The notes below the pieces were generated by a model that worked only from the letters and a program-made list of their open reading frames with translations, ran no database searches and had not been told where the DNA came from. From assembly GCA_000697665.1 (NCBI GenBank), contig KL197794.1, positions 1 to 46,637 of the forward strand: DNA of 46,637 nucleotides. The letters are read 5' to 3'. The position numbers and the translations under genes were made by a program. This document shows, in pieces, positions 4,513 to 28,771 of this stretch. The DNA comes from Jaapia argillacea MUCL 33604. Lineage: Eukaryota > Basidiomycota > Agaricomycetes > Jaapiales > Jaapiaceae. Position 1 is the first letter of the stretch, and each line of letters begins with the position of its first letter.

Positions 4513-5667
4513 ATGCTGCGATTTTGGCCAGTTAAACGAAACCCCGTCAAGAGGCCCACTCCCATTATCTCTGGGCTGGATAGATGTCCACCAGAGATAT
4601 GTGAATATATCTTCAGCTTCGCATGTACCGACGATGGCACCACGGCGAGATCTCTTTCTTTGGTGTCTCGGTACATCTACCAGACTTCGACGATTTATCG
4701 GTATCAAACCATCTCCGTAATGGGTGTCGATAAGATGCTCTCATTGTGTGTTGCGTTGGAGAAAACTCCCCTTCCTCGTCGACCCGTTCGGCACCTCTTC
4801 GCAACTCACCATAAAATCCCTGCCAATGCCAGCTCACGACCCTTGAGCCGACGGTTCACGGTTGACTTGATTTACGGCAAGAGCTCTCTAACCCAGATGG
4901 CTACGAGTATTAAAGGTATGGAACCTCTTTCCTCGGAAGCCATTTCATCGACAAACGACCCAGATAAACACGAAGAACCGACTAACCTCCAGACCTTCCG
5001 AGCCGTTGTTCGACTTCTGGGGCTTGTATCCAGCACATTGGAGACCCTCACCATCGTGATGCCTTCCAAGACTCAAGGCTTTGCCATCCCACTCCCTCTC
5101 CACCGACTTACAGCATTGACCGAACTGAGCATCTACGGGATGTTCGGATCACATACTGCGTGGATCCCAGAGCTGAGCTATACTCTGCCGAAATTGCAGC
5201 GACTACATATTGCCGGACCAGATACCAATCAATATCAGACTCCATGGCTGGTGCGATTAGCCCCTGCACTAACTCATCTCCGCCTGACTGGCGTAGAGGG
5301 AGGTCGCGGTGTCCACATTCCTAGTATTTTGGAAGACATACTTGCCCTACCTCATTCCCCCCACAATTATTTCCCCTCTAAACCGTATCCGCGGCACCCC
5401 GCTATCGAGAGGATCATCGTCCAGTACCGCATCCCACCGCTGCGCCTCCAGTCTGATTTCGAGCACAGCCTATTTCTTGGGTCGTTGGTTGTGTTGCAGT
5501 CCATCATCAACGAATATGCTCACGATGACGTGGTCGCGTTGAAACCGCAGCTCTGGCATGACGATACCCGAAGGCAAGTCATGGAAGCGAAGGAGTTATG
5601 GGTGTCTCGAGTTCAAGGTGGACTAGGGTGTTGGGATGAAGGAGATCAGATGGACCTTCACATTTGA
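4513..5667 (+). CDS. F-box-like protein, cluster member A
   Basis: Open over 384 codons. It has an N-terminal F-box-like segment (CPPEICEYIFSFAC, then TARSLSLVSRYI), a middle part with leucine-rich strands (TLETLTIVMP, LPKLQRLHIAG, LTHLRLTGVEG), and a C-terminal GGLGCWDE. F-box proteins recruit substrates to SCF (Skp1-Cullin-F-box) ubiquitin ligases; that role is inferred, and no partner is visible. The other seven cluster members have a phase-1 intron after the first third. Here a possible phase-1 intron at 4916-4963 (GTATGG to CCCAG, 48 nt, divisible by three, no stop) lies at the equivalent place, so the spliced protein may be 368 residues. Converges on the aldo-keto reductase gene. Confidence 0.75.
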   Translation: MLRFWPVKRNPVKRPTPIISGLDRCPPEICEYIFSFACTDDGTTARSLSLVSRYIYQTSTIYRYQTISVMGVDKMLSLCVALEKTPLPRRPVRHLFATHHKIPANASSRPLSRRFTVDLIYGKSSLTQMATSIKGMEPLSSEAISSTNDPDKHEEPTNLQTFRAVVRLLGLVSSTLETLTIVMPSKTQGFAIPLPLHRLTALTELSIYGMFGSHTAWIPELSYTLPKLQRLHIAGPDTNQYQTPWLVRLAPALTHLRLTGVEGGRGVHIPSILEDILALPHSPHNYFPSKPYPRHPAIERIIVQYRIPPLRLQSDFEHSLFLGSLVVLQSIINEYAHDDVVALKPQLWHDDTRRQVMEAKELWVSRVQGGLGCWDEGDQMDLHI

Positions 5668-5872
5668 TCAGGACAGGGCCATATCATCTTGTGTATTGTT
5701 GTTGGACAACTTCGCTACCTCGAGATCGCTGATCGCTGTTACCGTGTATCACTATATCCAGGTCTATGTGTCCTCATTAACCAGATTTCCAACTGTACAG
5801 GTCGGAAGGATACATGTTATTCAAGACTTTTCAAGCACTTCTGAAGCAGTACAGGTTCCCCTATTCTCCAGC

Positions 5873-7562
5873 TCAATAGGGATAGTCGTCGAACACGTCG
5901 AACTTCAAGCCCCAAGCCTTACTAGGGTTGATGACCCTCTGGGGTGGATGAGAAGTCGCAGCCTCCTCAAGCTTGTCAAACGACGCTTTCGGAAGTTCGA
6001 AGACTACAGACCATCATCAACGCACATTCAACTCAGGAAGCAGCAAAATGGACTCACTCTGTAGGTTCTCCTCAATGCGGGAGGGGGTGACACTCTTGGG
6101 GAGCACGATGGTCTGTAAAGTCATTGTAATTTGGTTAGACAACCTTCAAAATTAGTTGGATTGGTAGAATTACCCCGCGCTGGACATGCCAGGAGATGAT
6201 GACTTGAGCGGGCGTGATGCCAAGATCTTTGGCAATTTCCACAACCTACACCAAAGCGCCAATTCAGTTACCCTTCTCATCCAGCCTTTTCACGAGGGGC
6301 TTACCTCAGGACGCTTGAGGGTTGCTCCGACCTGCTGGGTGCTGCCTAATGGCGAGTATGCTTCCAGGAGAAGGTTGTTCTCCTTGCAATACTACAAGAG
6401 AGGCATCAGCGTTCGCCGCATATGAGAAGTCTATTGGGAGCGAACCTTCAGGAGCTCGGGCTGGGGGTTGAAGAAGTTGAGTTCGACTTGGTTGACAGCC
6501 GGTTGGATTTTGAGCGGGTTAGCAGTAAGATTCTTGAGCCTGGTGTGGGCGGTCTGTAAAATTTCATCCGAGACACGCAAGAATAATTGTTACCTAGGAA
6601 TGTTAAAGCTGATAGGAAAGTGTCAGAACAAGGTTCAAAATTGTCCACCAGGTGGTTTACTCACTTGCTGACACCGATATTCTTGACCTTTCCCTTTGCG
6701 ACCATCTCTTCAAGCTTTTGCCATGTCGGGTAGGGATCCGCAGTAAGTTGCTCATCAATGTTGGTTGTGGCTTTCTTGAAGGCTACCGGCCTAAGTTGGG
6801 AGAATTCGGCTTAATTCTGATACGATAATCGACGAGGAATATTTGGCATACCAGTGGATGATGTACAAGTCCAGGTAGTCTGTTCCGAGCTTCGTCAAGG
6901 ACTCATCGAGGGCAGGCTCTACATCCTCAGGGGCGTGGAAAGTATTCCACAACTACGCCGATGAATTGATCAACTGAAGATGGCGACAAGTCGTGGAAAT
7001 TTACCTTGGAGGTCAGCCAAATGTCGCTGCGAGGGACAGAAGCTTCCTTCAGCGCTTGTCCTACTTCCTCTTCGTTCTGAGTTCTACGATAAGCATACCA
7101 ATAGGAAAAACCCAAGGAACAAGCGCTTACTCGGTAGATCCAAGCACCGTCGATATGCCTGTATCCCGCATCCAAGGCAGTTTTCACAGCAGTACCAACT
7201 TCGCCAGACCCAGCCTGCCAAACACCTATCATTAACCACAAATCAGAATCTGCACAATCAGACGAAGCTCAATTCACAGTACCAAGTGCAACAGATGGGA
7301 TCTTATCGCCAGACGGCAGCGTATAATGCGACGGCAATTTCGACGCCGTCGACATGTTCAAGCGCCCATGGCACCCCGCAGAGCCCCAAAGAAACTTGGA
7401 ATTCGACTTGGAAACATGTCTCAAGCCTGAAAAGATGGCAACCATGATCGCCGCGGCGGTTATGAAGTGAAAGATGCGACGCTTTTTGTCGGCGGTGGTG
7501 GTCGACTTGAAAGGTTGCTCGTTGTCGAACTCGTCAACGGGAAGGCGTTTGTAGGAAGCCAT
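5873..7562 (-). CDS. aldo-keto reductase with N-terminal membrane anchor
   Basis: Predicted 375 residues in 11 exons: 7562-7283, 7225-7131, 7076-7005, 6952-6852, 6790-6665, 6608-6594, 6539-6446, 6391-6305, 6245-6174, 6112-6058, 6003-5873. It is an NAD(P)H-dependent carbonyl reductase of the AKR family. The catalytic tetrad is recognisable: D119 (DAGYRHID), Y124 (AWIYR), K149 (LTSK) and H182 (YIIHW). The C-terminal cofactor motif [16 protein letters not shown] is present. About 85 extra N-terminal residues precede the barrel, with a basic KKRR patch and a hydrophobic stretch ([17 protein letters not shown], about residues 30-46), suggesting a type II membrane protein with a lumenal or exterior catalytic domain, which is unusual for AKRs. 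Exon 6 is only 15 nt. Divergent from the first HIT gene, with 166 bp between the starts. Confidence 0.9.
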
Positions 7563-7728
7563 GGTGGGATTCCAGGCGAACTCGGTGTGGGAGCACGTCA
7601 TACATATACTCGGCAAATCCGGCTCGGGGTCCCGCTCAGACCATAATGTTGAACTTCGTGCTAATCTTGTCGCTGCTTTGCTCGACCGTCGATAGTATCT
7701 TGGATATCTAGCTCCTCACCCATTCAAC
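7563..7728. promoter_or_regulatory. shared divergent promoter region (AKR / HIT gene 1)
   Basis: Only 166 bp separate the two divergent start codons, so both genes must share this stretch for their 5' ends. I see no specific binding site. Confidence 0.4.
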
Positions 7729-8489
7729 ATGGCTGCGTCTAGTGCAAGGTTGTACAACTTGGCTCATCCAAGCAAGACTTGCTGATCAATGTAGATCGCT
7801 TGCCAGTTGCCTCTTCTGCAAGATTATCAAGGGTACGATGGCGTTCTCTACTCTAGCGAAGTGAACAGCGTGTGGTTAACCGTATTAATAGGTGAAATCC
7901 CAAGCTTCAAACTTGTGGAGACGGAACTGTCGTAAGTCTTATCGAGGTATGACCGCATGGGCCCAGTATTAATTTCCCACTTGCCAGGTATTCCTTTCTC
8001 GACATTGGCGCACTCTCGAGGGGGCACTCTCTTGTTATCCCGAAATGTACGTCTAGTTATCGTTCGGGGGAAGTTCAGACCGCGGCTGACGACATTTGTG
8101 TAGATCATGCTGAGAAGCTTCACGAAGTGCCTGATGAGTACTTGACGGACTCTATGATCGTGGCCAAGAAGATCGCTGTTGCCGTTGGTTGTGAGAACTA
8201 CAACATCTTACAGGTTTGTTCTTCCTCTTCTCATTACCAGTGACACAAAATCTCATCGTGCTTCATCGTAGAATAACGGGAAGATTGCCCATCAGGTTAG
8301 CCGTCTATCTTGCCTCTCCAAGTCTTCCCCTCCAACCTATTACTCCAGATCGTCCCCCACGTCCACTTTCATATGATCCCCAAACCCTCCGAGTCAGATT
8401 CGGAGGGACTGGTGATCGGTTGGCCTACCCAACAAATATCGAAGGAGGAGCTAGCCAAACTATACGAGGAACTTAAAGGGAAGCTCTAG
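7729..8489 (+). CDS. HIT-domain protein, copy 1
   Basis: Predicted 143 residues in seven exons: 7729-7748, 7795-7832, 7892-7931, 7988-8046, 8104-8213, 8272-8295, 8349-8489. It is a histidine-triad nucleotide-binding hydrolase of the HINT/Hnt1 type, expected to cleave AMP-linked substrates such as adenosine phosphoramidates. Seen: C12-x-x-C15 (SCLFCKIIKG) as in zinc-binding HINT proteins, LDIGALSRGHSLVIPK, and the triad HVHFHM (101-106), where the middle histidine (H103 or H105 by alignment) is expected to be nucleophilic. Full length for the family. It has a close tandem duplicate just downstream with identical intron positions. Confidence 0.9.
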
Positions 8490-8887
8490 GAATTCTTAGA
8501 GAGTAGACTAGACGAAGTAGATAAGATCTGTGTATAGGTCGTAACTTTCGCTAGAAGCCTAGCCGCTGTATATCATTGCCCTCCTGACATGTAAATCGGA
8601 CGAAAACTGGGACTCGAAGCGTGTCGTCAAGTAATCTCCTGGCTCAGAAGTTCTAGAGGATCGCTGGTATAACGCGACATCCGACAATCCTCCACCACTA
8701 GATAATTTTCTTGATGAATTTCTTGTCGATAAACAATTGCATTCTGAGACGCGGGGGTGTGGGGGAAATAGAGTTGAACGGGACTTGCCGGAAGAACAAC
8801 TCACCTCCAAACAAATCTCAACCTGCCTAATTTGGTAGTCGCCCGGCTTACTCCAGTGCCGTCCTAACCTCCTCACCAAATTGCCCC
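8490..8887. other. spacer between tandem HIT genes
   Basis: 398 bp with no gene seen. It contains the promoter and leader of copy 2. The coding region and the first intron are similar between copies, but I see no clear similarity of this spacer to the upstream region of copy 1. Confidence 0.4.
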
Positions 8888-9643
8888 ATGGCTGTCTCTA
8901 GTGCAAGGTTGTACAAGAAAACATGACTATCGAAGGCTTACTGATCAATATAGATCGCTCGCTAGCTGCTTTTTCTGCAAGATCATCAAGGGTGCGAGTC
9001 TCGTTCATACGCTCGGAGACACTGATCGGCTGAGCTGAGCCATAGTATGAATAGGAGAGATTCCCAGTTTCAAACTCGTGGAGACCGAGCTATCGCAAGT
9101 CTAGTCGTGCTTTCACTCGCACGACGCGGGTTGACCCCTCATTTACAGGTTCTCGTTCCTCGATATTGGCCCACTGTCAAAAGGACACTCTCTCATTGTC
9201 CCAAAATGTAAATTCTCAACGGGGTCTTTCGATGCTACCGTAAGAGCTTCATGATTTTGGCGCAGACCACGGAGAGAAATTGCACGACATTCCCGATGAG
9301 TATTTGAAGGATTCGCTGATTGTTGCCAAGAAGATCGCTCTGGCAGTGGGCTGCGAGAACTACAATATTCTCCAGGTATGTGTTCTACCAGTCTCCGCGC
9401 CACCAAAGCTCATCCATAAATTTTCTAGAACAATGGCAAAATCGCGCAACAGGTAGTCGATTTCTAATTCCCTTCGCCCATGTTACCTGACCACTACCCC
9501 AGCTTGTCCCGCATGTTCATTTCCACATGATTCCCAAACCGTCCGAGTCGGATTCGGAGGGTCTTGTGATTGGTTGGCCCACCCATGAGGTGTCAAAGGA
9601 CGACCTGGCGAAGTTACATGAGGAGATTAAGGGAAAGCTGTAG
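8888..9643 (+). CDS. HIT-domain protein, copy 2 (tandem duplicate)
   Basis: Predicted 143 residues in seven exons: 8888-8907, 8954-8991, 9055-9094, 9149-9207, 9266-9375, 9429-9452, 9503-9643. All exon lengths equal those of copy 1. It keeps the CxxC pair, the HVHFHM triad and the ESDSEG tail, so it should be active. Intron 3 starts with GCAAGT, whereas the matching intron of copy 1 starts with GTAAGT, so this copy has gained a GC-AG intron (or copy 1 lost one). Substitutions between copies are mostly silent or conservative, suggesting both are under selection. Converges on F-box gene B. Confidence 0.9.
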
Positions 9644-9835
9644 GATTGCATGGAGAATGGAACTCACAGGCCTTATTCATTTATCCCAACAAATGTACGA
9701 TATTGTATTTGACCCTCTTGTAGCATGACGTTGAATGCCGAAATTCAACCTTCGAAGCAAAAGGTGGAAACGACAGACCTGTCTGACCTCCGAGTTGACA
9801 CACGGGTCATACCGACGTCCAACTACAATCCCTGG

Positions 9836-11053
9836 TCAACGAGAGCATGACAATGGTAGGTAGCCGTATGACACGAGCGACAATTCCTCCGCAAATCGAT
9901 CAACTTCAGTCTCATCCCAGCACCCCAATCCACCGGCTACCGTATCAAGCCACAGGTCCCTAGCTTCTTCAACGATCTCATCCACATCTAACCCCCAAAG
10001 CTGCGACCTGAGAACCACCACCTCATGATGATCCTTCGCCAACTTCTGGAGGTCATCGAGCACAGTCACATGCCTCGCATAACTGAATTGGGCTCCGTAG
10101 TGAGATGGAGGTCGTGGTCGGATGAGACATCTTTGAAAGGAGGTAGGTCGAGGAAACGGTTCGCCAATTGGAATTGGGAGCCCCAATAATCCCAATAGGA
10201 TATTCCGAAGGTCTGTTCCAGTCTCAAACCCTGAAATACCCATCTCAAGTCCGGAGAAGCAGATATCGGTGAGGGAGGGTGAATCGTTGACGAGAGTAGC
10301 AATATTGGAAGGGATATATTGAGATCCTGCGAGATGTAGCTTTTGAAGAGCGGGAAGGGAACGTTTGCCAGTTTGGGAGATATGCCACCAATCGCGTCCC
10401 TCTTGAGTGGCGAAGAGAGTCAGGTCTTGAAGGACCGGGTAATCGAGATGAGGGAGGGGTACCTCCCATGGTTCGGGCATCACCATAGTCAGGACTTCAA
10501 GATTGGAAGCGACGGTAGAGAGGATTTTTGTAATGCAATCGTTGAGCATGATCCGAGTTTCGTCGTCGGTCTTCCTTCCAGCCCATTGCGGGCTTCCCCT
10601 GATAACTGTCAAAGTTGGTTAACCAAGGTCTTGATCCGTTTTCAAGGACGTACCTATGGATTCGGGAACGCATGTCGCTTTGGAAGACAAGACTCGGCGA
10701 AGACGCTGTGTCCAAGATGGTTTTTTGAGTGGCATTGAAAGCGAGACCAGGGGCCTGGTCTCTACAGCCGCCGCGCCATCTTTATCGTAACAAGACAGAA
10801 AAAGATCTCGAACTCGAGCAGAGTTGGGAGGTATTGTTTCTAAAAGGCACATAAACCTTCGCATCTGGGTCAGCCCGTCTAGGGCAATGGATTGGTATCG
10901 GATACCCATGGACACATTGTGAATGTATCGGGACACCAGGGAGAGTGAGCTCCCGGTGATGCCGCCATCCACACAAGCATATTTAAAAATGCGTTCAAGA
11001 ATCTCCGGAGGGCAGGTGGATAGGGCTGGGTGATGAGCTGGGGAGCCGACCAT
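9836..11053 (-). CDS. F-box-like protein, cluster member B
   Basis: Predicted 389 residues, exons 11053-10654 and 10605-9836, joined by a 48-nt phase-1 intron (GTACGT to GACAG). The F-box-like N terminus has CPPEILERIFKYACVDGG and SLSLVSRYIHNV. Then come leucine-rich strands (LEVLTMVMPEP, LPALQKLHLAG, LTDICFSGLEMG) and the C-terminal GGLGCWDE near residue 364. Closest in style to members A, C and D. Its start is 289 bp from that of member C on the other strand. Confidence 0.8.
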
Positions 11054-11342
11054 GTCAAACGAAGTCGAGTGGTTTCGAATGAGCTTTTCGCAATAAAAAG
11101 TCGAGCTTTAGGGGAAGACTGTGGTTCCCTCCACCAACACTGTCGTCGAAGCCCACGACGACGAGGTAGTCAAATACACTCGTGAGCCTGATTCTGGTAC
11201 AATTTGAAGAATCGAAGTGTGGACACTTATATATTTCAACTTATGATTACTTACTGCGTGATAACTTAAGATAAACTAACCTTGTGTAAATCAAATCCGC
11301 CCAGTTTTCACGCAAACCACGGCAACCATTCTCCCCACAATA
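11054..11342. promoter_or_regulatory. divergent promoter region of F-box genes B and C
   Basis: 289 bp between two head-to-head F-box genes. A TATATA stretch at about 11228-11233 could serve gene C. Nothing more specific is seen. Confidence 0.35.
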
Positions 11343-12553
11343 ATGTCGGCGAACCTAGAGGGACGAGGAGGACCATATTCTCCTCGTGCTTGTTTGCAAA
11401 ACTGTCCTCCAGAAGTTCTGGAACCCATCTGTCGCCTGGCATGTGCGGGGGACGACGGTTCAACTGCCCGTTCCCTCTCTTGTGTTTCCCGGTACCTCAG
11501 CGAGGTCTCGAGGCCACTCCGATACCAGAATGTCGCCATCAACGGAGTGAAGCAACTGAAGAGGTTTTCATCCGTCGTTAAAGAATATCCGAATGTGTGT
11601 CGCGTTCGTAGCCTCTTCTTCTCATCGCACCACTTGCCACGAAAATGTGTTTTTCCTGCTCCAGATGATAAGCCAGCGCGTTCGTGGGGAACACGTATAC
11701 GCAAGCCCATCTTCTCTTCATCCCAAGTGACAGGACGTAGGTTCTCCCCCCTCCTTCGACGCACACCTCCTGATGATATCCCGGACCCCCAGATCATAGT
11801 GGGTATTGGCCCGAAAATATCACTCAAACGGACAAGCAAACAATCCGAAACATCCATCTATATCTCTTTCATATCTTCACCAAAGTCGCTGGTACACTTG
11901 AGTCCCTCACTCTGGTACTGCCCAATCCATGGAATATCCCCTTCCCTAGGGCGGACGCGCCACTCAATATGCTTGTGGAGTTTTCGGTATACGCAATATG
12001 CGAATCGAAAGTGGACCCTTGGATGGAACCTTTAGGCATCCCAGTGGTCCTCCCTGCTTTACAGAGGCTCCACCTTGTAGGACGCTATTTCAACCCACCG
12101 AGTACTCTGAAGTTCATCACCCGTGCTCCTTCTTTAACACACCTCCGCTTCTCCGGGCTGGAATACAGCAGAGGCTCACAAACCGTCCTCCTAGAACTCC
12201 TCAGAACCCGTGCCATCCGCCGATCCCCTCAGCATTCTTGCCCATTCGAATGCTTTCTCATCCAAGCTCGCCCGCTTATCTACGGCAGAGACTTCCCTTA
12301 CAACACTACCAAATCTACCCCTCTTCACGGTCTTCATTCATCCGTTGATGGTCGACCAAGGATCGTTCCACTCAATATGCAAATCTGGAGCGGCACGGCG
12401 GACGAGGTGATTGATGAAGCTAAATCTTGTTGGATTGGGAGAAATGAGGGAGGATTGGGTTGTTGGGATGAAAGTGATGTGATGAATGGGATATTGTTGG
12501 AACCCATTGAAAGGCGTGGGTGGTATTTCGCTGCCGCTGGTTCGGTCGCGTGA
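11343..12553 (+). CDS. F-box-like protein, cluster member C
   Basis: Predicted 384 residues, exons 11343-11736 and 11793-12553, with a 56-nt phase-1 intron (GTAGGT to CCCAG). The two reading frames join only after splicing; the joined frame restores the family strands TLESLTLVLPNP and LPALQRLHLVG. The F-box-like segment has CPPEVLEPICRLAC, with a one-residue insertion (AGDDGST instead of DGGxT). The C-terminal motif GGLGCWDES is present, with a longer tail than in the siblings. The SCF receptor role is inferred from family. Confidence 0.78.
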
Positions 12554-12826
12554 ACAACTCCTCAGAATAACTCCCACCACGTTACATAACTATCTTGCTC
12601 TGTTCAATTTAATGATGGCTTGACTCCACGTCGCATCCTCCCTTTGACTTTCAGCGACCCTGCCTCTGCATAATTCGCTCAACACATCTTTTGTAGCGAT
12701 GTCTTTGCTCGTAATACTTATCTGGGGCACGGCGAAACGCGGTGTCGTTTTGTCGGCTGTGCCCTAACGCCCGACTGTGTCGGAGTTGGGGACGACTTGC
12801 CTTCAACTCGTCAGCTCTGCCAAAAG

Positions 12827-14041
12827 ATGGCCACTCCCCCGTCGGGTTGCACAACAATGGACGACTTCCCTGCAGAAATATTGCAGCATATCTTCTCCTT
12901 TGCCTGTCTCGACGGAGGTCGCACTGGGAGGACTCTCTCTTTGGTATCTAGGCATATTCGAGCAGTATCGAAATCAACCAAGTACCAATCGATTGCGCTG
13001 GAGGGCATAGGCTCCATGGAGAGGTTCTTGGAACACTTGGCAGGAATGGACTCAGATCCCGACCCTCTTTTCATTCGATATCTTTTCCTTTCGCGGTATG
13101 ATCCACCACCTATCAATGGGCCAGTGACGAAACCGTCCGTTGGTCGACGTATTCGCAAGGTCTTTTCTCCGGATTCCTGGTTGAGTTCCATCGCTTCAGA
13201 CCTCGGTACGCCCCTCCGCTTCTGCCTTCCTCCTTCTGCTTACCTCGCGACTGTACCCTTCTTGACACCGCAATCTTGTGGACTCGCTGAAACCTGCTCT
13301 TATACTTCGACAGCTGACCCGAACTGGCTGAGGACACACACTGATACGCACAAATTCGAAAGGATATATGACTGCACATTCCGCGTCATCGCTGGGGCAG
13401 CACCGACCCTCCAAGTTCTAGCCATCGTGATACCCCACCCACGTCAGATTCCTCTCCAGCACATCTCCTTTCCCGCCCTTCGTGACTTGACTGTATTTTC
13501 CACCGAGGAAAGTCGGCTGCAGCAGTCGCTAGCCTATCACAACCCTAGCCCCCATCCTCGACCCATCCTACCTTCTCTTCGAAGGATTCACCTTTCCGGT
13601 CTCGATTACCTACGGCAGAACATGGTCGAGTTCATCAAGGCAACCCCTTCTCTTACCCACACCTGCTTCACAGGTCTGGATGTTGACGGGACCCTTAAAC
13701 CTGTGATCCTGGGTCTTGTAGACGCCAAGACGGGGACAGCATCTGCAGATTCGTCGAACTCCCCATTCCCTCGACCAGAAAATTTCCAGAAATGTTTCGT
13801 TAGACCTCGTCTATCTTTACACCGATTCCGTGAAGAAGAGTATTCGGTTATCGTGGATGAAATGCGACAATGCGCAAGGAATCACGAGGGGTTGGTGTTG
13901 ACGAGGACGATCTTTGAGGACCTGGATGTTGATAACAGTGTCGATGAAGCTAGAGGGTTGTGGTTCGATACCATTGCAGGAGGTATTGGTTGTTGGAATG
14001 AGAGTGATATCGATCTTGACGTTGTTGCTCGGGGAGATTGA
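12827..14041 (+). CDS. F-box-like protein, cluster member D
   Basis: Open from 12827 to 14041 without a stop. By analogy with its siblings it should have a phase-1 intron at 13206-13313 (GTACGC to CGACAG). That intron is 108 nt, a multiple of three and stop-free, so both spliced (368 residues) and unspliced (404 residues) products are possible. The F-box-like N terminus has FPAEILQHIFSFAC, LDGGRTGRTLSLVSRHI; the middle has LQVLAIVIPHP and LPSLRRIHLSG; the end has GGIGCWNESDI. An in-frame TTG at 12797 is not used as the start because siblings begin close to the F-box. Confidence 0.78.
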   Translation: MATPPSGCTTMDDFPAEILQHIFSFACLDGGRTGRTLSLVSRHIRAVSKSTKYQSIALEGIGSMERFLEHLAGMDSDPDPLFIRYLFLSRYDPPPINGPVTKPSVGRRIRKVFSPDSWLSSIASDLGTPLRFCLPPSAYLATVPFLTPQSCGLAETCSYTSTADPNWLRTHTDTHKFERIYDCTFRVIAGAAPTLQVLAIVIPHPRQIPLQHISFPALRDLTVFSTEESRLQQSLAYHNPSPHPRPILPSLRRIHLSGLDYLRQNMVEFIKATPSLTHTCFTGLDVDGTLKPVILGLVDAKTGTASADSSNSPFPRPENFQKCFVRPRLSLHRFREEEYSVIVDEMRQCARNHEGLVLTRTIFEDLDVDNSVDEARGLWFDTIAGGIGCWNESDIDLDVVARGD

Positions 14042-14709
14042 ATTCCCGAATAAGAATACTTCCAAGGCGTGCTCTTGAACAAATGTACGTGATTAACTCC
14101 TATGTTTTCCCCCACACTTTCGTTGAACCCTGCTTCTCTCAGGGATTTACGGGACATGGGCCTTGGCGAAGGGAGTCCCATACGCCTCTGTCCAACAAAG
14201 CATCATTGTCGCACTCTTTCCGCTCTCCTATCCTGCTCAGCCGACCAACTTCCATCTTCATCTTCTTAAACATAATTTTCTTCTCGCTGCTGAATTCATT
14301 GCCCACAGCCTCGCGTCACTTCCAGATGTGTCCATCTCATACCCTGGCTACTGTTCAATCCATCTCGAGTTCGATATCCGTGACGTTGGACTGTCTTTGG
14401 ACATATATATCACGCCTTTGGCGACGGACTTGCCATTCATCCTGGAGTGATTTTATCAACAGAACATTTCCGATATCTGCAAATGTTGACCTCTGCCGAT
14501 TTTCTCTCGTGGTCGCTGACTACGATTGATTCTGTCGTTTCCAACTTGATAACTAACTGTATGGAGCTTGCATAATTGTGACCACGTACTTCGATATGGG
14601 AATGACTCAGACAGTTGGACTGCGGGTCAGAGACAACTTTGTTAAAATACGATCTGCCATCTCCATCGACTGATCTCTGCTAATCACCATTCGCTAACAG
14701 GTTTGATCT
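14042..14709. other. 668-bp intergenic, no gene seen
   Basis: Two overlapping open frames (about 14038-14529 and 14163-14450) have no ATG start, recognisable domain or consistent splice pattern. It probably holds the 3' end of F-box D and the promoter of the HD-domain gene. Confidence 0.4.
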
Positions 14710-15623
14710 ATGTCTCCTCTACCCTCTCAGACGCTCCCGGTTCCCCTTCTACCCTACTTTGCCTCCTTGAATCTACCTCCCCCCTCGATATATCCACCAT
14801 CCCTCTTCGCCTTACTAACCAGTTCTACAAGCACGCCAACGGCTCTGACACCCATCATATCAAAGGCGCTCTCATTCGCTCGCGATTTCCTCCCACCATG
14901 GGTCTTGAACCATTCCCTTCGCGTGTACGCCTATGGCGTAGCTCTAGCTACTCACGCCGGTTGGACCGAGGATCCGGAGGTGGTAATACACATGGGATGG
15001 GATCAGGAGTTGTGGTTCTTAGCTGCGCTGTTTCATGACATCGGGTGGGCACCTGATTCCGAGTGTCGATGCGGAGGTGAAGATGGAACCCGGCTGAGTT
15101 TTGAGATTTGGGGAGGGATGAAGGCGAGGGAGTTGTTGATTGAGTGGGGAGCACCGAGATGGGCTGCTGATGAGGTTTGTGAAGCCATAATTCGGCATAC
15201 CGTACGTCCATCTACCCTCTTGCTTTCCGTATTTTGTCCTGCTCGTCGAGGAGATACTTACTGCTCCCCACCGACGTTCAGGAGGATTACAACTCAGGCT
15301 CCCTCCGCCTTGTCACGGCACTGCTCAACCTCGGCCCCTCACACGATTTCAGAGCGATCCTTCACGCCCCTTCTCTTATCCATCCTGAAACAACGAGCGC
15401 CATTACCCTCCTCTACCCTCGTCTGGGCCTAATATACCACTTTGTGGAGGTGACGAATCACGAGACGGAGACGAAACCGGGTTGTTTAAGTGCTATCTGG
15501 GCGCCAAGGACTTTGGGGAAAGTTGGTGGTATTCAAGATTTTGACGGAGTGCAGGGGAAGTTAGATGAGGGGGAAGATGGATGGGAGAGGAAGAAGGACG
15601 GTCAGTTTCTGGTATTGAAGTAG
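14710..15623 (+). CDS. HD-domain hydrolase, cyanamide-hydratase-like
   Basis: Predicted 277 residues, exons 14710-15201 and 15282-15623 (80-nt phase-0 intron). It shows the metal-binding HD signature in order: H68 (LNHSLRVYAYG), H109-D110 (LFHDIGW), a SFEIWGG helix, and AIIRHT (H163). This spacing is that of the fungal HD family that includes urea hydro-lyase (cyanamide hydratase, DDI2/3-like). The substrate cannot be told from sequence; the family label is an analogy. It is a little longer than typical members because of an N-terminal proline-rich lead and a C-terminal tail. It lies inside the F-box cluster with no visible functional link to it. Confidence 0.78.
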
Positions 15624-15845
15624 TTGAAATAAATACAGCGCAGTCCTCGTCATTCAGACGCAAGGGCGAGCGATAAAGCAGTGAGCCCTCCATCTATAAT
15701 ACAATCACAGGTGAATATTTGTTCGCAGATTTCGGGGCTGAGGTCAGTAAGCTGTGAAGAGATGGGATGCGTGACAGGTCACGGCCAAAGTTCCTTCTGT
15801 GACTCCATTGTGACCTGCCGTCACTCAGCCCCTCCTCCAGTCGTT

Positions 15846-17035
15846 ATGAAACGTTTTCGAATCCGAAAGCGCCACCACCTTAGCCTCGACAAGTTACCCC
15901 CCGAAGTTTGTGAACAAATATTTTTTTATGCGTGCACAGACGGAGGTTTCACCGCCAGGTCCCTCGCCCTCACGTCGAAATATATCAATGAGGCGTCTGA
16001 ATCGTCTCGGTTCATCTCTGTCAGTGTGGCAGGACTCGAGCAGATGCTTAGGCTTCTTGCGAAGCTTCAATCCCGCGGGACAGGGAGTGTCGGAGTGAGG
16101 CACATGTACTTGAGTTACATCCCTCCACGGAAGCTGCGAGTTTCAGAAGCTCGATCATGGACCCCTTGGAGGCTTCGTGAAGGACTAATGGGTAGAGGGC
16201 GTGGAGGTAAGGAAGAATGTACGTCTCGCAACCCATTTCTACGTTGCTGTTTTTTTCACCTTGAATAATGGATTTCTCTAAACCAGCTCCTGCCGAGCTG
16301 GGGGCTCGATACCGGCCTAATCCCACCGAATCCGCTTCCATCGTGACTGCAGCCACCTCCCTCCTCTCCCTAACATCTCCCACACTTCTCACTCTCACTC
16401 TCATCATGCCACAAAACCCGACAATCCTTCTTCCCCGTTCCCCTCCACCCCTCCTCCAAGAGTTATCCCTCGATGCCACCTACCAAACCTATTATACTAC
16501 GAACGAGTGGGAGCCACCACAAGGATATCGTTTACCTGCACTTCGAAAGCTTTACATTGCGGAGCGTTATTTTCATGAGGAGGAGTTCAAGGCTTTGGTG
16601 GGGAGCAGCCCCGGGCTGACTCATTTGAGGTTGGTCGGGGTTGAAGGGAATATTGACGTGGAAGGTGTCCTTGGACCACTTTCTAGAGGACAACCATTTG
16701 ACGAAACTGACCTTGATGGTCACTCTCGTTCCCTCCAAACGATCATCATCCAACCCCGAACCTTGCCTCGGATCTACGGTTGCGGGAATGAAGCTGGCAG
16801 TTACGTCAGGCCTCTACATGCTTTACAGAGATTACAGCAGGATAGCATCGGAGTTCAAGTGATATTCCTCCCTCCTCGAGAAACTAGTGCTGTTCCGTCA
16901 GACGTGGAAGCTAAGATGTTTTGGAAGGACAGTTTAGTGTCGGGTGGGGGAGATGGGCGGGGATGCTGGAATGTTGATCGGAAAGTGGATGTGGAGGCAC
17001 TTATCATGAGGGCACACATGGTGCCGAGCTTCTGA
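15846..17035 (+). CDS. F-box-like protein, cluster member E
   Basis: Predicted 373 residues, exons 15846-16218 and 16287-17035, with a phase-1 intron. The start at 15846 gives the short basic lead (MKRFRIRKRHH) shared with members G and H. F-box-like segment: LPPEVCEQIFFYAC, DGGFTARSLALTSKYI. Middle: LLTLTLIMPQNP, LPALRKLYIAE, LTHLRLVGVEG, TIIIQPRTLP. C terminus: GRGCWNVDRKVDVE. With F, G and H it forms a second subgroup marked by TARSLALTSKYI and a GCW motif followed by VDVE or similar. Confidence 0.8.
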
Positions 17036-17166
17036 TGAAAGGTTGCTCTCCGTCAGTCGAATTCGCAGTGACGAAAGTTGAATCCATACAATATTGCTAC
17101 AACTAAGGTTCTCCACCATGGGTATCCACAAAGTCCATTGAACAAACAAATCTTACAATAATCATC

Positions 17167-18325
17167 TCAACGAACCCAATGCGAAACATCGACGCGTGTG
17201 CTCACATCCCAACACCCATCTCCCCCAGCCATCCTGTTCTTCCAAAACGCTTTGCCCACATCGTCCAACTCGCCGGCACCCAAAACCCTCGAGGGTAAAA
17301 GCACCGCCTCGACGCTAACTTTATCATTGCACAACCTGTGAAACCCATGAAGTAGAGTTGCGAAGAATTGATTAAGGCCTCCAGCTGCAAACTGAGGGGG
17401 AGGTGGGACATATTGGATGATGATCGTTCGGAGTGAAGGATGATGACGCCCAGGTGACTCGAAGCCTTCCTTGTTGGTTAATCCCTTCACGGCACCCCAT
17501 AGAGCGCCGTCAACATTGGTGCTCCCCTCCACTTCGCTCAACCTCAAGTGGGTCAGCCCAGGACTGATCTTCAAGAGGGTCCTGACTTGTTTGTTGGTAA
17601 AATCGCTTCCGGCGAGATGGAGTTTTCGAAGAGAAGGAAGCCGATAGTCTGCTGATGGTTTCCAGAGGCACTCCTCGCTGTTTATGCAATAGAGCGAGAG
17701 CTCCTCGAGTGCGGGAAGTGGATCGGGAGGGAGGAGGAAAGACTTGGTTTGGGGCATTACCAAGGTGAGGGTAATCAGTGTCGAGGATGCGATTGTTAGA
17801 ATAGCTGCGGCAGCGGCGTGGATGGCTGCGAGTGTGGCTGGCGGTGGTTCGTAACGTGCCATTCGATCGTCGTAACCTATTCAAGTGGGTTTAAGGGTGA
17901 TGTCGATTGATGTCGATTAATGTCATTGATAAGAAGAGATACGAACATTCCTGAATGATTTGACTTCCGCTCATTTCCCCGACGTTGAACCTCCTAGTCC
18001 ATAATCGAGGATCGCGGAATATGGTCAAATCTTCCGACAACTTCGAAGGGGCGACATAACTCATGTACATGTGGCTTACCCTCCTGCTCTCTGGAGTGCC
18101 CGCCTCCAAATGAGCGAGGAGATTGAGCATCTGGTCAAGCCCTGAAACGCTAACAGAGTGAAAGCGGCTCGATTCAGACGCCCCGCGAATGTACTTTGAT
18201 GTGAGGGCGAGGGATCTCGCTGTGATGCCTCCATCGATGCAGGCGTCGGAGAAGATGAGGTGGCAGATTTCGGGAGGCAGGTGGTCGAGAGTTGGACCGC
18301 GCCCTCCAGGCGAGAAATGATTCAT
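17167..18325 (-). CDS. F-box-like protein, cluster member F
   Basis: Predicted 362 residues, exons 18325-17947 and 17876-17167 (70-nt phase-1 intron, donor GTTCGT). F-box-like: LPPEICHLIFSDAC, DGGITARSLALTSKYI. Middle: LITLTLVMPQTK, LPSLRKLHLAGSDF, LTHLRLSEVEG, RTIIIQYVPPP. End: GGDGCWDVSTRVDVS. Convergent with E and divergent from G. A TATATG at about 18360 on the minus strand, some 35-40 nt upstream of the start, may be its TATA element. Confidence 0.8.
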
Positions 18326-18748
18326 GAATGGTGATGGGAGAGACGCAGAGGAATGGGCTCATATATGGTGGAGATGATAGTCCTGTCAGCAACCTACCCC
18401 CATGCAACAATTAGACGCTGCTTAGCCTCAAGGCTGGGGATAATTGAGAAGCTAACATAACCGCGAAGGTTGCAGTGCCAATTGACACGCTGCAGCCTCG
18501 GGCTGTACGAAAGATCAACCATGAGGAAATGCAGTCACGATCAATGATTGCAACATGAACGACAAAAAAATAGGCTTGCCGAATTTAAAATTGAAATTGC
18601 CACCCTTCAGCTCTCCAGCTGCGCGTCACTACGGCAACGAGGACATCCCTCCAAGCTTCAAGTCCGAGCGTACCGATGTCAAGTGAGAAACCGTGCTGGT
18701 TCGGGGGAACCTAACTGCACATTTCACCCTGGTCTTTCTTCTGTCACT
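18326..18748. promoter_or_regulatory. divergent promoter region of F-box genes F and G
   Basis: 423 bp between two head-to-head cluster members. Apart from a TATATG near 18360 for gene F, I see no distinct element. Confidence 0.35.
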
Positions 18749-19994
18749 ATGAATCGATTCCGGAAACACAAACACAAACGTCGCCTTACTCTTGACAACT
18801 TACCTCCAGAAATTTGCGAACAAATCATCGCCTTTGCTTGTATAGATGGAGGATTCACTGCTTCATCCCTTGCCCTCACGTCTAAATACATCTCTGGTAC
18901 TTCAGGGGGGTCGCGATTCTACTCCGTCAGTGTATCGGGGCTGGAACGGATAAACAACTTGCTTGAGGCGTTGAGGTCGGGAAATCCTCAGAGCAGGGGG
19001 GTTGAGCACATGTACTTGAGCTATGTTACGCCAACAAAGCAAGTCGATGTGAGGCCGGTCGTCCAAGAGCCTCGGCCATGGACTCGGAGGCTTCGTCAAG
19101 GGTTGACGTGGACGAGCGCAGAAACCAAGGCTATTCAAGAACGTACGTCTCCCAATTCTTTATGAATCTCTTACATCTTTCTACTTACCAATGAGAACTA
19201 ACCCGAACTGACCAGCTAATCCAACACCTCCCAAACCTCCCGCCGAGGCAACAGACCGCTACTGCCCCAAAGTCGACTTGATCTCTGCCATCTCCACCGC
19301 GACAACGGCCATCCTCGCTCTCACCTGCTCAACCCTCGTCACCCTCACCATAGTAATACCCCAAACTGCATCCTTCATCCTCTCTCTCGGCTTTCCCCTC
19401 CTCGAAGAATTATCATTCTATTGCTTATATAGCAACGAGTACGAATGGGAGATCTCAACCAACTATCGCTTATCCGCTCTTCGAAGGCTACATTTAGCTG
19501 GAAGTGAGTTTAGCGAGAGGGATATTAGGAGGTTGTTGAAGATCAGTCCTGGCTTGACTCATTTAAGGCTGAGCGAGGTGGATGGGAGTGTGGATTTGGA
19601 GAGTGCTTTACGTGGGCTTGTTGGCGGGCCGGAAGACCAGATCAACCAGGATCTCTACGGAATTGATCTTGATAGTCCTCTCGGTCGACATCCTTCATTA
19701 GAAACGATCGTCATCCAACCTCGCTTCGAACTCCATGATGCGTTACAGAGGCTAAAACAAGAGGCCTTTTGGGTTGAGGTGGCATTGCTTCAGTGGAGGT
19801 ATCTGCCTAACGTCAAGTTGGAAGATGAAGGGAGAGTGTATTGGGAGGAGAGGGTGGCGGGACGGGAGGGATGCTGGAACATTCGTGGCGAAGTACTGCC
19901 CGACGCCAACTACTCTGCCAGGCTGCGAAATAGTCCCCTCGCCTCTCCGCAACTCTCTACCCTCTTCACACAGAATTTCTTGCCTGGATTGTAG
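18749..19994 (+). CDS. F-box-like protein, cluster member G
   Basis: Predicted 390 residues, exons 18749-19142 and 19216-19994 (phase-1 intron). It begins with a basic MNRFRKHKHKRR lead, then LPPEICEQIIAFAC and DGGFTASSLALTSKYI. Middle: STLVTLTIVIPQT, LSALRRLHLAGSEF, LTHLRLSEVDG, TIVIQPR. The C-terminal motif EGCWNIRGEV is present, but the VDVE-type ending of E, F and H is replaced by about 30 unrelated residues, suggesting a late frameshift or an unrecognised splice. Confidence 0.75.
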
Positions 19995-20314
19995 AATAGA
20001 TGGTCATGGTATATAGCCTCTTGGACAAACGAAAGAGAATCGACTAGCCCAACTTGAAGACGCTATGGATGGCAGTGGCTTCCTTCTGATAGCGACACCT
20101 TGTGGCGCGGTAATTCTCCTCTGTTTCTGAATGCTCCCCGACTGCACCGATGCGATACTGTGGTTGGAGTAACCATCTTTCAAAGTTGATGATTCCGTTT
20201 TCCATGCAAACGGGACAGTAGTGACTATATATAGCTGGACAGGCACTGGAGGCCATTGTTGATTCTCTGAATCCCCACACTTTCTTTACTCTCGATTCAT
20301 CAAACCTCCCGCCC
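19995..20314. other. intergenic upstream of F-box gene H
   Basis: 320 bp with no gene. The only visible element is TATATATA at 20226-20233. Confidence 0.4.
20226..20233 (+). promoter_or_regulatory. candidate TATA box of F-box gene H
   Basis: TATATATA, 82 nt upstream of the ATG at 20315. Sequence and position only. Confidence 0.35.
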
Positions 20315-21544
20315 ATGGGCATAAAACGATTCTGGAAACGGAACCGTCGTCTCACCCTCGACAAATTACCTCCAGAAATCTGCGAACAGATTTCTGCCTT
20401 TGCTTGTATAGATGGAGGTTTCACTGCTCGATCGTTGGCTCTCACGTCGCGATATGTACGCAAGACAGCGGATTCATCACGGTTCCATTCCGTCTGCGTC
20501 TCTGGCCTCGAGCAGATGAATTGTCCTTTGGGGAATGCTTCGAGCGCAGGAAGGTGAAGCATATGTGCTTATCCTCTGCCAGCCCTCCAAGCCCGAGACG
20601 AGCCGTTGCCGGTCTGTTCGGCGGTCCTGGGCTATGGGCTCGAAGAACATTTGAAAGGGGTATGGGTCGAGAAAGTGGAACGGGTAGAGAAAGTGAAATC
20701 ATCGTGGAAGGTGTGGCTTTTGATCAGCTCGATATCCCTGACCACGCTAACCAACTAAACGGTGGTAGCCAAGCATGTGCGAAGGGTGCGGTACTACCCC
20801 CTTTCCTCTGAAATTCAAGCGATCACCTCGGCGGCTTTTGCTATCTTCAGTCTCACGTCTTCCACCCTCCTCACCCTCACACTTGTGATGCTACAGAGTC
20901 GATCGTTCCCCCTCCCTCGAACCCCTTTTCCCGTCCTCGAAGAGTTGTCACTCTATCGCACGTGGATTGATAATTATAATTACGGGTTGGTACCTTCACT
21001 CGATTACCGACTTCCTACGCTTCGAAGATTACATCTTGGTTCGAGCGCTTTCAGTCAAGAGCAGGTTAAGGCGCTTTTGGGGATGAGTCCCCAGTTGACG
21101 GATTTGAGATTCAGCGAAGTTGAGAACGATGTTGATTTGTACGCTGCCTTGGCGGGGCTTGTGAGAGGACTGAAGGCAAGTGAGGATAGACGGGATGAGG
21201 AAGCGGTTGATTCGGGTTCAGGAAGCTATCCTTCACTGGAGACAATCTTGATCCAACCTCGACCGTTACCTCACGTCTTTGGATGGACCGATGCTAGCCA
21301 ATATGTCGACTCTCTCCGTTCGTTCCAGAAATTGAAAGATGATAGCTTAGAGGTGGAGGTCACTTATTTAGCGCCGAGAGAATCTGGTTTACGGATATTG
21401 GACGAGGAGGCGAAGGAGTTTTGGATAGATCGATTGGGAGAGGGACAGGGCTGCTGGGATACTGGGAGTAAAGTGGACCTGGAGGAACTTTTGGAGAGGG
21501 CGAATAACGTACCCCGCTCGATGAATCGGATGATGGTCGGTTGA
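20315..21544 (+). pseudogene. F-box-like member H, disrupted by a frameshift
   Basis: Exon 1 (20315-20710) and exon 2 (20769-21544) carry all family hallmarks: LPPEICEQISAFAC, DGGFTARSLALTSRYV, a phase-1 intron, LLTLTLVMLQ, LPTLRRLHLG, TILIQPRPLP and GQGCWDTGSKVDLEE. However, the frame that starts at the ATG runs into TGA shortly after VSGLEQMN (about 20525-20556). The family sequence resumes in another frame at KVKHMCLS. Exon 1 is 396 nt where the phase needs 3n+1, which fits a one-base loss at about 20517-20540. Either a recent pseudogene or an assembly error; the rest of the gene has not decayed. Confidence 0.8.
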
Positions 21545-24363: not shown

Positions 24364-25902
24364 ATGGATTCAGCAATCCTCGATGCCCTCCGTTCGAACT
24401 TCACATCACCTCCTGGTATTCATGTACCGAGCGCTATCGTAGAATCCCAGGGGGAGGTCGATACCCTGGAGGTTCAGATAAGGCAGCTTAGGGCACAGCT
24501 TCAGATCCTGGAGGAGCGGAGGGACGTTGCTCAAGGCCGTTGCTTGAACCTGAAGTCTCTATCCGCTCCCATCCGCCGCTTGCCCTCTGACATACTGTTG
24601 GAAATATTCAGCCATACCCTGTGGTATGGTTCTGCGGACCCCATATACGACCCGTTTCCACTCCTCCTTACTCACGTCTGTTCCTACTGGAGACATTTGG
24701 CGTTGTCGACACCGACATTGTGGTCGTCGATCCGTGCACGGCCAACAGATGGACAGTTGGAGTATTACAGAGCTCTATGGAACCATTTCCTCCTTCACTC
24801 CGGAACCGCCCCTCTGTCACTATTTCTAGACCTCTCCTATGTTGAGTGGGAACAGGATGAATTGTTGGATCAATTTGTTGAACACAGTCGTCGGTGGAAG
24901 GCGGTGGGCTTCACTATGGATTCCATACAACCCCTACGTCGACTCGAAGAAGATGACATGAACCAACTGCAATCACTCGCACTTGCTGCCCTGGACACCG
25001 TCTCTTCCATATTCCTCCACGACATCACATGCTTCCGATCAGCACACGCCCTGGTCGACGTCTCGCTGGGAGGATATTGGGATCCGTCTTTGGTAGCGCT
25101 GCCTTGGGGTCAGCTCACCACTTTATCTTTTGGATCCAGTATCACCCCCGCATCTCTCAACCTCGACATTTATCTGAGCGTTCTACGCCATTGTACCCAG
25201 CTGGCCCGCCTTGAATTCAACTTCGGCGATTGCGATGTGGATGAGAGGCGACCATCACGATTACCCGGTTACATCACATTGCCGAAGCTACGATCCCTCT
25301 CCGTTGAAGGCGCATTACACATCATGGATGACTTGATCTTCGAGAAACTCGGGCTCCCCGGGCTGACAGAGTTTATCTACCATCCAGGTTTTGTCTCCGG
25401 GATCCCGCGTTCTTTGGAATCTTCCTGGAAGGCGTTCCAATCCTGCGCGGGGAGATCACGATGCAAACTATCCACCATATCGCTGACTCGCGGGAGTGTA
25501 TTCGATGTAGATGTTATTGGTTGGCTCGATTGCCTCCAGTCGGCTCGAGAAGTCACTTTGGACCTGACGTCACTTGTCCGACGCGACCAGAAGACTTTTA
25601 TTGAGTATTTCTCAAATAGAGATGTAGGGTCATCCGGTCAAACAGCCCCTTGCAAGTTTCCATCGATGCAAAGAATCACTATCCATGGACTCCAATCTTC
25701 TCCTTCTGTAATCGAAGCCCTGGTCTCCATGGCTCGATTTCGATGCCGTTTACATTCCCCGGAGTCGTCGAGTTCTCTGGAGACCCCCACAACACTTCTC
25801 TTTGCTTCCTTCGGGAAGCAACTCGCAGCAGAATTGGAATTTTGCCTACGAGACTGCGTGGCAGCTGGTCTCACTCTCCATTTTCACTCTCCACTCTTCT
25901 AG
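24364..25902 (+). CDS. coiled-coil F-box protein I
   Basis: Intronless, 512 residues. A leucine/glutamate-rich coiled coil (about 27-62: LEVQIRQLRAQLQILEERRD) leads into an F-box (IRRLPSDILLEIFSHTL, then LTHVCSYWRHLALSTPTLWSSI). About 390 residues of leucine-rich C-terminal region follow. This architecture is typical of the large Agaricomycete F-box family; the role as an SCF substrate receptor is inferred from family. It belongs to a different subfamily from members A-H. Copies J and K lie downstream in the same orientation. Confidence 0.88.
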   Translation: MDSAILDALRSNFTSPPGIHVPSAIVESQGEVDTLEVQIRQLRAQLQILEERRDVAQGRCLNLKSLSAPIRRLPSDILLEIFSHTLWYGSADPIYDPFPLLLTHVCSYWRHLALSTPTLWSSIRARPTDGQLEYYRALWNHFLLHSGTAPLSLFLDLSYVEWEQDELLDQFVEHSRRWKAVGFTMDSIQPLRRLEEDDMNQLQSLALAALDTVSSIFLHDITCFRSAHALVDVSLGGYWDPSLVALPWGQLTTLSFGSSITPASLNLDIYLSVLRHCTQLARLEFNFGDCDVDERRPSRLPGYITLPKLRSLSVEGALHIMDDLIFEKLGLPGLTEFIYHPGFVSGIPRSLESSWKAFQSCAGRSRCKLSTISLTRGSVFDVDVIGWLDCLQSAREVTLDLTSLVRRDQKTFIEYFSNRDVGSSGQTAPCKFPSMQRITIHGLQSSPSVIEALVSMARFRCRLHSPESSSSLETPTTLLFASFGKQLAAELEFCLRDCVAAGLTLHFHSPLF

Positions 25903-27217: not shown

Positions 27218-28771
27218 ATGGATTCAACAATCATCGATGCCCTCCGTTTGAACTTCACCTCAGCTCCTGGCATTCATGTGCCCAGCGCTATTTCAGAATC
27301 ACAGATGGAGGTCGATGCCCTGGAAGTTCAGATAAGGGAGCTTCGGGCACAACTTCAGATGCTAGAGGAGAGGAGAGATGTTGCTCAAGGCCGTTGCTTC
27401 AATCTGAAGTCTCTATCCGCTCCCATCCGCCGCTTGCCCTCTGACTTACTGTCGGAAATATTCAACCACACGCTGCAGTATGGTTCAACGGGCCCCGTAT
27501 ACGATCCATTTCCACTTCTCCTCACTCACGTCTGTTCCTACTGGAGACATTTGGCTTTGTCGACGCCGACGTTGTGGTCGCCGATCCGTGCACGGCCAAC
27601 AGATGCACAGTTGGTGTATTACAGAGCTCTATGGAACCATTTCCTCCTTCACTCCGGAACCACCCCTCTATCACTGTTTCTAGACTTTGCGCATGTTGAG
27701 TGGGGACAGGACGAATTGTTGGATCAATTTGTTGGTCACTCTCGTCGGTGGAAGGCGGTGGGCCTCACTATGGTGGCGACGACGGATTCCGTGCAACCCT
27801 TACGTCGACTCGAAGAAGGCGACATGAGCCGACTGGAATCACTCGAACTTACTGCCTTGGGCGCCGTCCGTCCCGCATCCCTCCACGACATCGTATGCTT
27901 CCGATCAGCACGAACCTTGGTCAGCGTCACACTGAGAGGATATTGGGATCCATCTTTAGTGGTGTTGCCTTGGGGTCAGCTCACCGCTTTATCTTTTGGA
28001 TCTAGTCTTGTCCCCGCATCCCTCAATCTCGGCATTTATCTCAGTGTTCTACACCATTGTACCCAGCTGGCTCGTCTTGAATTCTACTTTGGCGATCGTG
28101 ATGTAGACGAGGGTCGACCATTGCGATTACACGATCACATCACATTGCCGAAGCTACGATCCCTCTCCGTTCAAGGCGCATTACGCATCATGAATGACTT
28201 GATCTTCAAGAAACTCGGGCTCCCAGAGCTGACAGAGCTTATCTACCAACCAGGTTTTGTCTCCCGAATCCCGCGTTCTTCGGAATCTTCCTGGAAGGCA
28301 TTGCAGTCTTGGGCGGGGAGATCACTATGCAAAGTATCCACCATATCGCTGACTCGCGGGAGTTTATTCGATGTAGATGTTATTGGTTGGCTCGATTGCC
28401 TCCAGTCGGCTCGAGAAGTCACTTTGGACCTGACGGGATGTGTCCGAGGTCACCGCCCGGAGACTTTTATTGAATATTTCTCAAATGGAGACGTAGGGTC
28501 ATCTGACCAAACAGCCCTTTGCAAGTTTCCATCGATGCGAAGAATCACTATCCGTGGACTACAATCTTCTCCTTCTGTAATCGAAGCCCTCGTCTCCATG
28601 GTTCGATTTCGATGCCGTTTACGTTCCCCGGAGTCGTCGAGTTCTCTGGAGACCCCCACAACTCTTCTCTTTGCTTCCTTCGGGAAGCAACTCGCAGCAG
28701 AATTGGAACCTCGCCTACGAGACTGCGTGGCAGTCGGTCTCACTCTCCATTTTCACTCCCCACTCTTCTAG
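27218..28771 (+). CDS. coiled-coil F-box protein J
   Basis: Intronless, 517 residues, colinear with gene I over its entire length. Coiled coil LEVQIRELRAQLQMLEERRD, F-box IRRLPSDLLSEIFNHTL with LTHVCSYWRHLALSTPTLWSPI, and the same C-terminal ending (GLTLHFHSPLF). The differences are mostly substitutions plus small insertions (such as MVATTDSVQPL in place of MDSIQPL), and the frame is intact, so it is probably functional. The 5' and 3' flanks are duplicated too. SCF substrate-receptor role inferred. Confidence 0.88.
   Translation: MDSTIIDALRLNFTSAPGIHVPSAISESQMEVDALEVQIRELRAQLQMLEERRDVAQGRCFNLKSLSAPIRRLPSDLLSEIFNHTLQYGSTGPVYDPFPLLLTHVCSYWRHLALSTPTLWSPIRARPTDAQLVYYRALWNHFLLHSGTTPLSLFLDFAHVEWGQDELLDQFVGHSRRWKAVGLTMVATTDSVQPLRRLEEGDMSRLESLELTALGAVRPASLHDIVCFRSARTLVSVTLRGYWDPSLVVLPWGQLTALSFGSSLVPASLNLGIYLSVLHHCTQLARLEFYFGDRDVDEGRPLRLHDHITLPKLRSLSVQGALRIMNDLIFKKLGLPELTELIYQPGFVSRIPRSSESSWKALQSWAGRSLCKVSTISLTRGSLFDVDVIGWLDCLQSAREVTLDLTGCVRGHRPETFIEYFSNGDVGSSDQTALCKFPSMRRITIRGLQSSPSVIEALVSMVRFRCRLRSPESSSSLETPTTLLFASFGKQLAAELEPRLRDCVAVGLTLHFHSPLF

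Follow-up and report, generated by a model that had tools for sequence, protein, structure and literature searches.

Gene content and layout of the cluster

The 46,637-nucleotide stretch analysed here, hereafter the window, covers positions 1-46637 of a contig (KL197794.1; label C86) of the 43.7 Mb genome of the fungus Jaapia argillacea MUCL 33604, which is assembled in 95 contigs. It carries eight related genes, A-H, with a common layout of an F-box-like exon, a leucine-rich exon and a terminal GCW(D/N) motif. This shared layout had been described in an earlier note on the same DNA, and all eight genes were found to be present.

Gene A (4513..5667, + strand) encodes 384 amino acids without splicing, with the first tryptophan (Trp) of its tail at 5599-5601 and GLGCW at 5620-5634. 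Gene B (9836..11053, - strand; intron 10606-10653) has GLGCW at 9917-9931, gene C (11343..12553, +; intron 11737-11792) has GLGCW at 12452-12466, and gene D (12827..14041, +; intron 13206-13313), in which the unspliced frame is also open, has GIGCW at 13982-13996. Gene E (15846..17035, +; intron 16219-16286) carries GRGCW at 16955-16969, and gene F (17167..18325, -) carries GDGCW at 17209-17223 and a likely intron with the donor GTTCGT, the coordinates of which (17877-17946) were derived from offsets. In gene G (18749..19994, +; intron 19143-19215), GCW was located by eye at 19869-19877 within GREGCWN and is followed by a long tail. Gene H (20315..21544, +) is broken: the exon-1 frame ends at a TGA after 80 codons, with further exon-1 residues in another frame, and the exon-2 part is open over 20768-21544 with GQGCW at 21443-21457. 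An exon-1 relic of the same family, of about 40 codons, lies at 15653..15775 (- strand), flanked by an HD-domain gene and gene E; it was recovered as a profile match (E 6e-10), and matches gene F by tblastn with 63% identity (E 0.0019).

Genes B-G become open once a single phase-1 intron of 48-108 nucleotides, which separates the F-box exon from the repeat exon, is removed, while gene A is open unspliced and has weak intron candidates only. A 77-nucleotide intron in A with a good-looking branch-site end was rejected because, as judged by eye, it breaks the frame. Both the phase-1 intron, with A as the doubtful case, and the damage to H, which retains its GCW(D/N), had been recognized before. 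Exon 1 has 11 invariant columns across the eight window genes.

A family dispersed over the genome

The genes had been taken for a local family, but single-protein searches of the fungus's own genome, the only fungal genome covered, combined with iterated profiles over the fetched loci, recovered about 50 members on 16 contigs, eight of them in the window. These search counts are lower bounds. From 52 exon-2 candidates, 50 were kept, as C72:74920 (76 columns) and C8:559004 (49 columns) were too short, and 49 of the 50 have both exons. Apart from the window, clusters occur on C3 (259-277 kb; seven members) and C1 (264-281 kb; six members), and isolated members or small sets on C1 (604-607 kb), C2, C3 (1.68 Mb), C4, C6, C7, C8, C12, C14, C16, C18, C25, C37, C42, and C62. 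Members are often only about 30-40% identical to each other. Among other sequences, viral contigs gave five pattern matches, none of which was confirmed as a homolog, and plasmids gave no match to exon 2 of F. Similar proteins with ACTDGG...LSLVS are probably widespread in Agaricomycetes.

Of the members with both exons, 31 were assigned to a core that contains the window genes, and the other 18 were classed as outer members, at C14, C25, C4, C16, C37, C7, C3:1678, and C6:1293. By our own count, a phase-1 intron candidate is top-ranked in 26 of the 31 core members (that of A being weak); the top-ranked candidate is phase-0 in C1:265559 and C12:882426, and in three broken core members it is absent or not clear. 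Exons 1 and 2 lie in a single open frame in 17 of the 18 outer members. Breaks were found in at least eight of the 50 family members, and none was noted in 42. Three outer copies on C14 (809094, 852342, and 874317), spaced 22-43 kb apart and including one with in-frame stops, represent a recent dispersed duplication, the other two matching the first at 93% and 90% identity. At a locus on C6 (L050), exon-1-like matches for which no exon 2 was matched occur at 2553-2804 and 6508-6759 (+), whereas two full members there are encoded on the other strand.

A conserved tryptophan tail

GCW followed by D or N is present in all eight window genes, as the earlier note had claimed; the exact GxGCW that it gave for all eight holds in seven, the exception being G (GREGCWN). 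The surrounding sequence was said to vary freely, but a second conserved element, E-A-K-x2-W-x2-R, lies just before the motif. Two Trp residues spaced eleven positions from each other mark the tail, W-x5-GG-x-GCW, and are preceded by an EAK stretch that is also conserved. Of the 217 columns in the exon-2 profile, W203 (47/47 aligned members) and W214 (46/46) carry the most information, followed by C213 (39/46); G212 is kept in 42/46, G209 in 41/46, and the exact GCW in 36/46. By this measure the strongest constraint within exon 2 falls on the tail, which bears out the proposal that the C-terminal motif is the constrained part. An aligned tail is found in 46 of the 50 members, and the four without one (C6:1293203, C25:317430, C25:318631, and C37:83008) were counted as misses, the first tail Trp still being within frame in both C25 members.

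Since local profile alignments stop at the end of the match and so favour the motif, the tail was also counted without alignment. W-x10-W occurs in 44 of 51 family exon-2 tails compared with two of 81 control open reading frames (ORFs), the family tails starting 60 residues ahead of the profile end and the controls being the last 75 residues of mechanical ORFs, so that the two sets are not strictly equivalent; outside the tail, none of the 51 exon-2 stretches contains it. The seven family misses include a fragment of a broken member and window gene E, where a four-residue insertion ahead of GCW widens the spacing. Column conservation and this count together define the signature as E-A-K-x2-W-x2-R followed by GG-x-GCW.

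Structurally, the tail most likely caps the repeat domain. In the predicted model of A, the tail Trps are placed with high confidence on and beside the last helix, and their conservation together with the secondary structure of the model suggests that both are packed on the last repeat, so that the tail would close the solenoid at its C-terminal end. The tail might instead be a docking site for one shared partner, such as a cochaperone, a cullin-cycle factor, or an anchoring protein, with the repeats binding varied clients. Its standing as the most conserved part of exon 2 among such divergent members fits this explanation, as do the C-terminal extensions of variable length behind it, which place the tail near an accessible end; yet two strictly kept large hydrophobic residues with tolerated cysteine (Cys) changes are also expected from buried packing, and the modelled position of the Trps argues for the latter, so that we regard docking as unlikely. 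A redox or metal site at GCW is suggested by the Cys that adjoins the invariant Trp in 39 of 46 tails, but this residue is replaced in the other seven (by W in four, and by Q, F, and L in one each), whereas both Trps are kept in all 46, and no second conserved Cys or His is seen by eye in the tail columns. Cysteine chemistry was therefore rejected as the main role and seems highly improbable.

F-box and leucine-rich identity of the two exons

When compared profile to profile with eight canonical F-boxes from this genome, the N terminus matched with 91.7% probability over 43 columns, while the maximum among 50 shuffled controls was 1.5%. Matches to general domain models are weaker. PF12937 (F-box-like) was detected in four of the eight exon-1 pieces with E up to 0.5, and PF24758 (LRR_At5g56370) in five of the eight exon-2 pieces with a best E of 6.2e-05; no window gene passes the cut-off of the Pfam F-box clan, the best listed score being 19.8 bits versus 24.3 (gene F), and in the Pfam scans of the window genes no listed score reaches a curated cut-off and no FBD-type domain was reported. 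One of the ten outer members scanned, C25:302805, exceeds the Pfam F-box-like cut-off (24.7 versus 24.3 bits). Sequence searches of the PDB gave no match for exon 1 and none that was convincing for exon 2. The best structural re-alignments of the full-length predicted model of A are to F-box/leucine-rich repeat (LRR) proteins of the FBXL type (Skp2, FBXL5, FBXL17, and KDM2A/KDM2B), which have an F-box followed by a leucine-rich solenoid, as is predicted for the window genes; identity is only 7-18% among the top eight, and the window genes differ in an F-box below the Pfam cut-off and in a Trp tail of their own. Judged from the profile comparison, exon 1 is a divergent F-box. The F-box/LRR identity that had been proposed is thus supported by the F-box profile comparison and C25:302805, and more weakly by the model of A.

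Phylogeny and selection

In a maximum-likelihood tree of the 49 members with both exons (LG+G4, 1000 ultrafast bootstraps), genes E-H form a clade (100%). The sister of gene A is C62:22955 (100%). Genes B and D (97) are grouped with C12:882426 (100), the closest partner of C is C8:922298 (72), and B, C, D, C12:882426, and C8:922298 together form a clade (97); several deeper core nodes are weak (26-74). From these placements, the cluster combines three lineages, one of which, E-H, is a local expansion. Of the two subgroups proposed earlier, E-H therefore stands, while A-D is ruled out as a group by the tree, with A beside C62 and B, C, and D beside C12 and C8. The segment signatures assigned to the subgroups are likewise not uniform, as VSRYI reads VSRYL in C and VSRHI in D, and TSKYI reads TSRYV in H.

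The ratio of nonsynonymous to synonymous substitution rates (dN/dS) was estimated by the Nei-Gojobori method over short regions in nine pairs, seven outside and two inside the window, some of which include broken members. Compared with columns 1-110, profile columns 111-192 (residues 269-352 of A), immediately ahead of the tail, are looser in seven of the nine pairs (0.14-0.83), and in six they are the loosest of four regions; in the C1, C14, and C6 pairs the loosest is the F-box region, and an F-box ratio of 0.80 was obtained in one pair. In all eight pairs with a ratio, constraint is tighter on the tail than on the middle region, and the ninth pair, in which the tail has three nonsynonymous changes but no synonymous one, runs against this trend. 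The middle region had been put forward as a place to look for positive selection, but no computable dN/dS exceeds 1 in the nine pairs, and the two window pairs (E/H and F/G) are near dS saturation; positive selection as an established fact was accordingly rejected.

The weak F-box scores, the breaks in at least eight of 50 members, the loose middle region with ratios up to 0.83, and the F-box ratio of 0.80 in one pair would also fit F-box-like LRR proteins that have lost their role in SCF complexes, being scaffolds or drifting genes kept by duplication rather than function. Against this speak the computable dN/dS values, every one of which is below 1, the 42 of 50 members without a noted break, and the phase-1 intron candidate at the F-box/LRR junction that is top-ranked in 26 of 31 core members; we consider such a loss of function rather improbable.

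Other genes in the window

A second tandem F-box-like family lies beside the cluster at 24364-25902, 27218-28771, and about 31686-33206 (+ strand), the two flanking copies sharing 83% and 73% identity with the middle copy, and it recurs at no fewer than 40 other places in the genome (E up to 1e-10). Like A-H, these are tandem F-box-like genes, but they consist of a single open frame of about 500 amino acids with another N terminus and, by eye, no GCW tail, and profiles of the GCW family gave no match to them at E 0.01. The two families adjoin each other both in the window and on C4 near 1.80-1.86 Mb.

An HD-domain protein (PF01966, E 3.6e-08) is encoded amid the F-box cluster at 14710-15620 (+). 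A small multi-exon gene present in two tandem copies, at about 7730-8490 and 8880-9643 (+), contains the stretch HVHFHMIPKPS and, by eye, looks like a HIT-domain protein gene. Domain scans further identified an aldo/keto reductase domain (6927-7241, -), a GH131 domain (37385-37729, -), a glutathione synthase domain (38532-39338, -), and a response-regulator domain (40771-41739, -). No tRNA and no Rfam RNA was found in the window.

Proposed function and significance

We consider it probable that A-H encode SCF substrate receptors in which a Trp cap closes off variable last repeats, and that they belong to a large fungal birth-and-death F-box/LRR family. The divergent F-box of exon 1 would be expected to bind Skp1, and exon 2 would form a short leucine-rich solenoid whose repeats bind clients. 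Profile columns 111-192, the final repeats ahead of the tail, form the likely face for substrate contact and specificity, and various client proteins may in this way be brought to the SCF ubiquitin ligase for degradation. A more specific and quite speculative proposal is that the dozens of Trp-capped receptors make up an innate recognition set, which would mark proteins of foreign or non-self origin (from viruses, transposons, or incompatible mycelia) for degradation via fast-changing last repeats, with the cap as a fixed scaffold.

As a set of probable SCF receptors, the family of A-H is rather ordinary among expanded F-box families. Large repertoires are also described for Rhodonia placenta, with 164 F-box proteins (PMC7314958), and for Caenorhabditis, where the expansion is species-specific and the C-terminal part is less constrained (PMC8665587); the relevant passages of these two sources name no Trp/GCW tail. 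In other passages, F-box proteins appear among the orthogroups of complex multicellular fungi (PMC8893723), F-box is listed among the expanded families of Piriformospora indica (PMC3192844), and F-box-like domains are given as enriched in Ganoderma australe (PMC8955403). F-box expansion in such fungi is thus already known; no description of the Trp/GCW tail was found in the open-licence literature, which is not proof of its absence.

Some mushroom-type fungi have large F-box sets of unknown role, and the tail signature helps to sort one such family. W-x5-GG-x-GCW makes this family recognizable among members that are often only about 30% identical, where the Pfam F-box model mostly fails, and it directs attention to the final repeats ahead of the cap as a possible site of client specificity.
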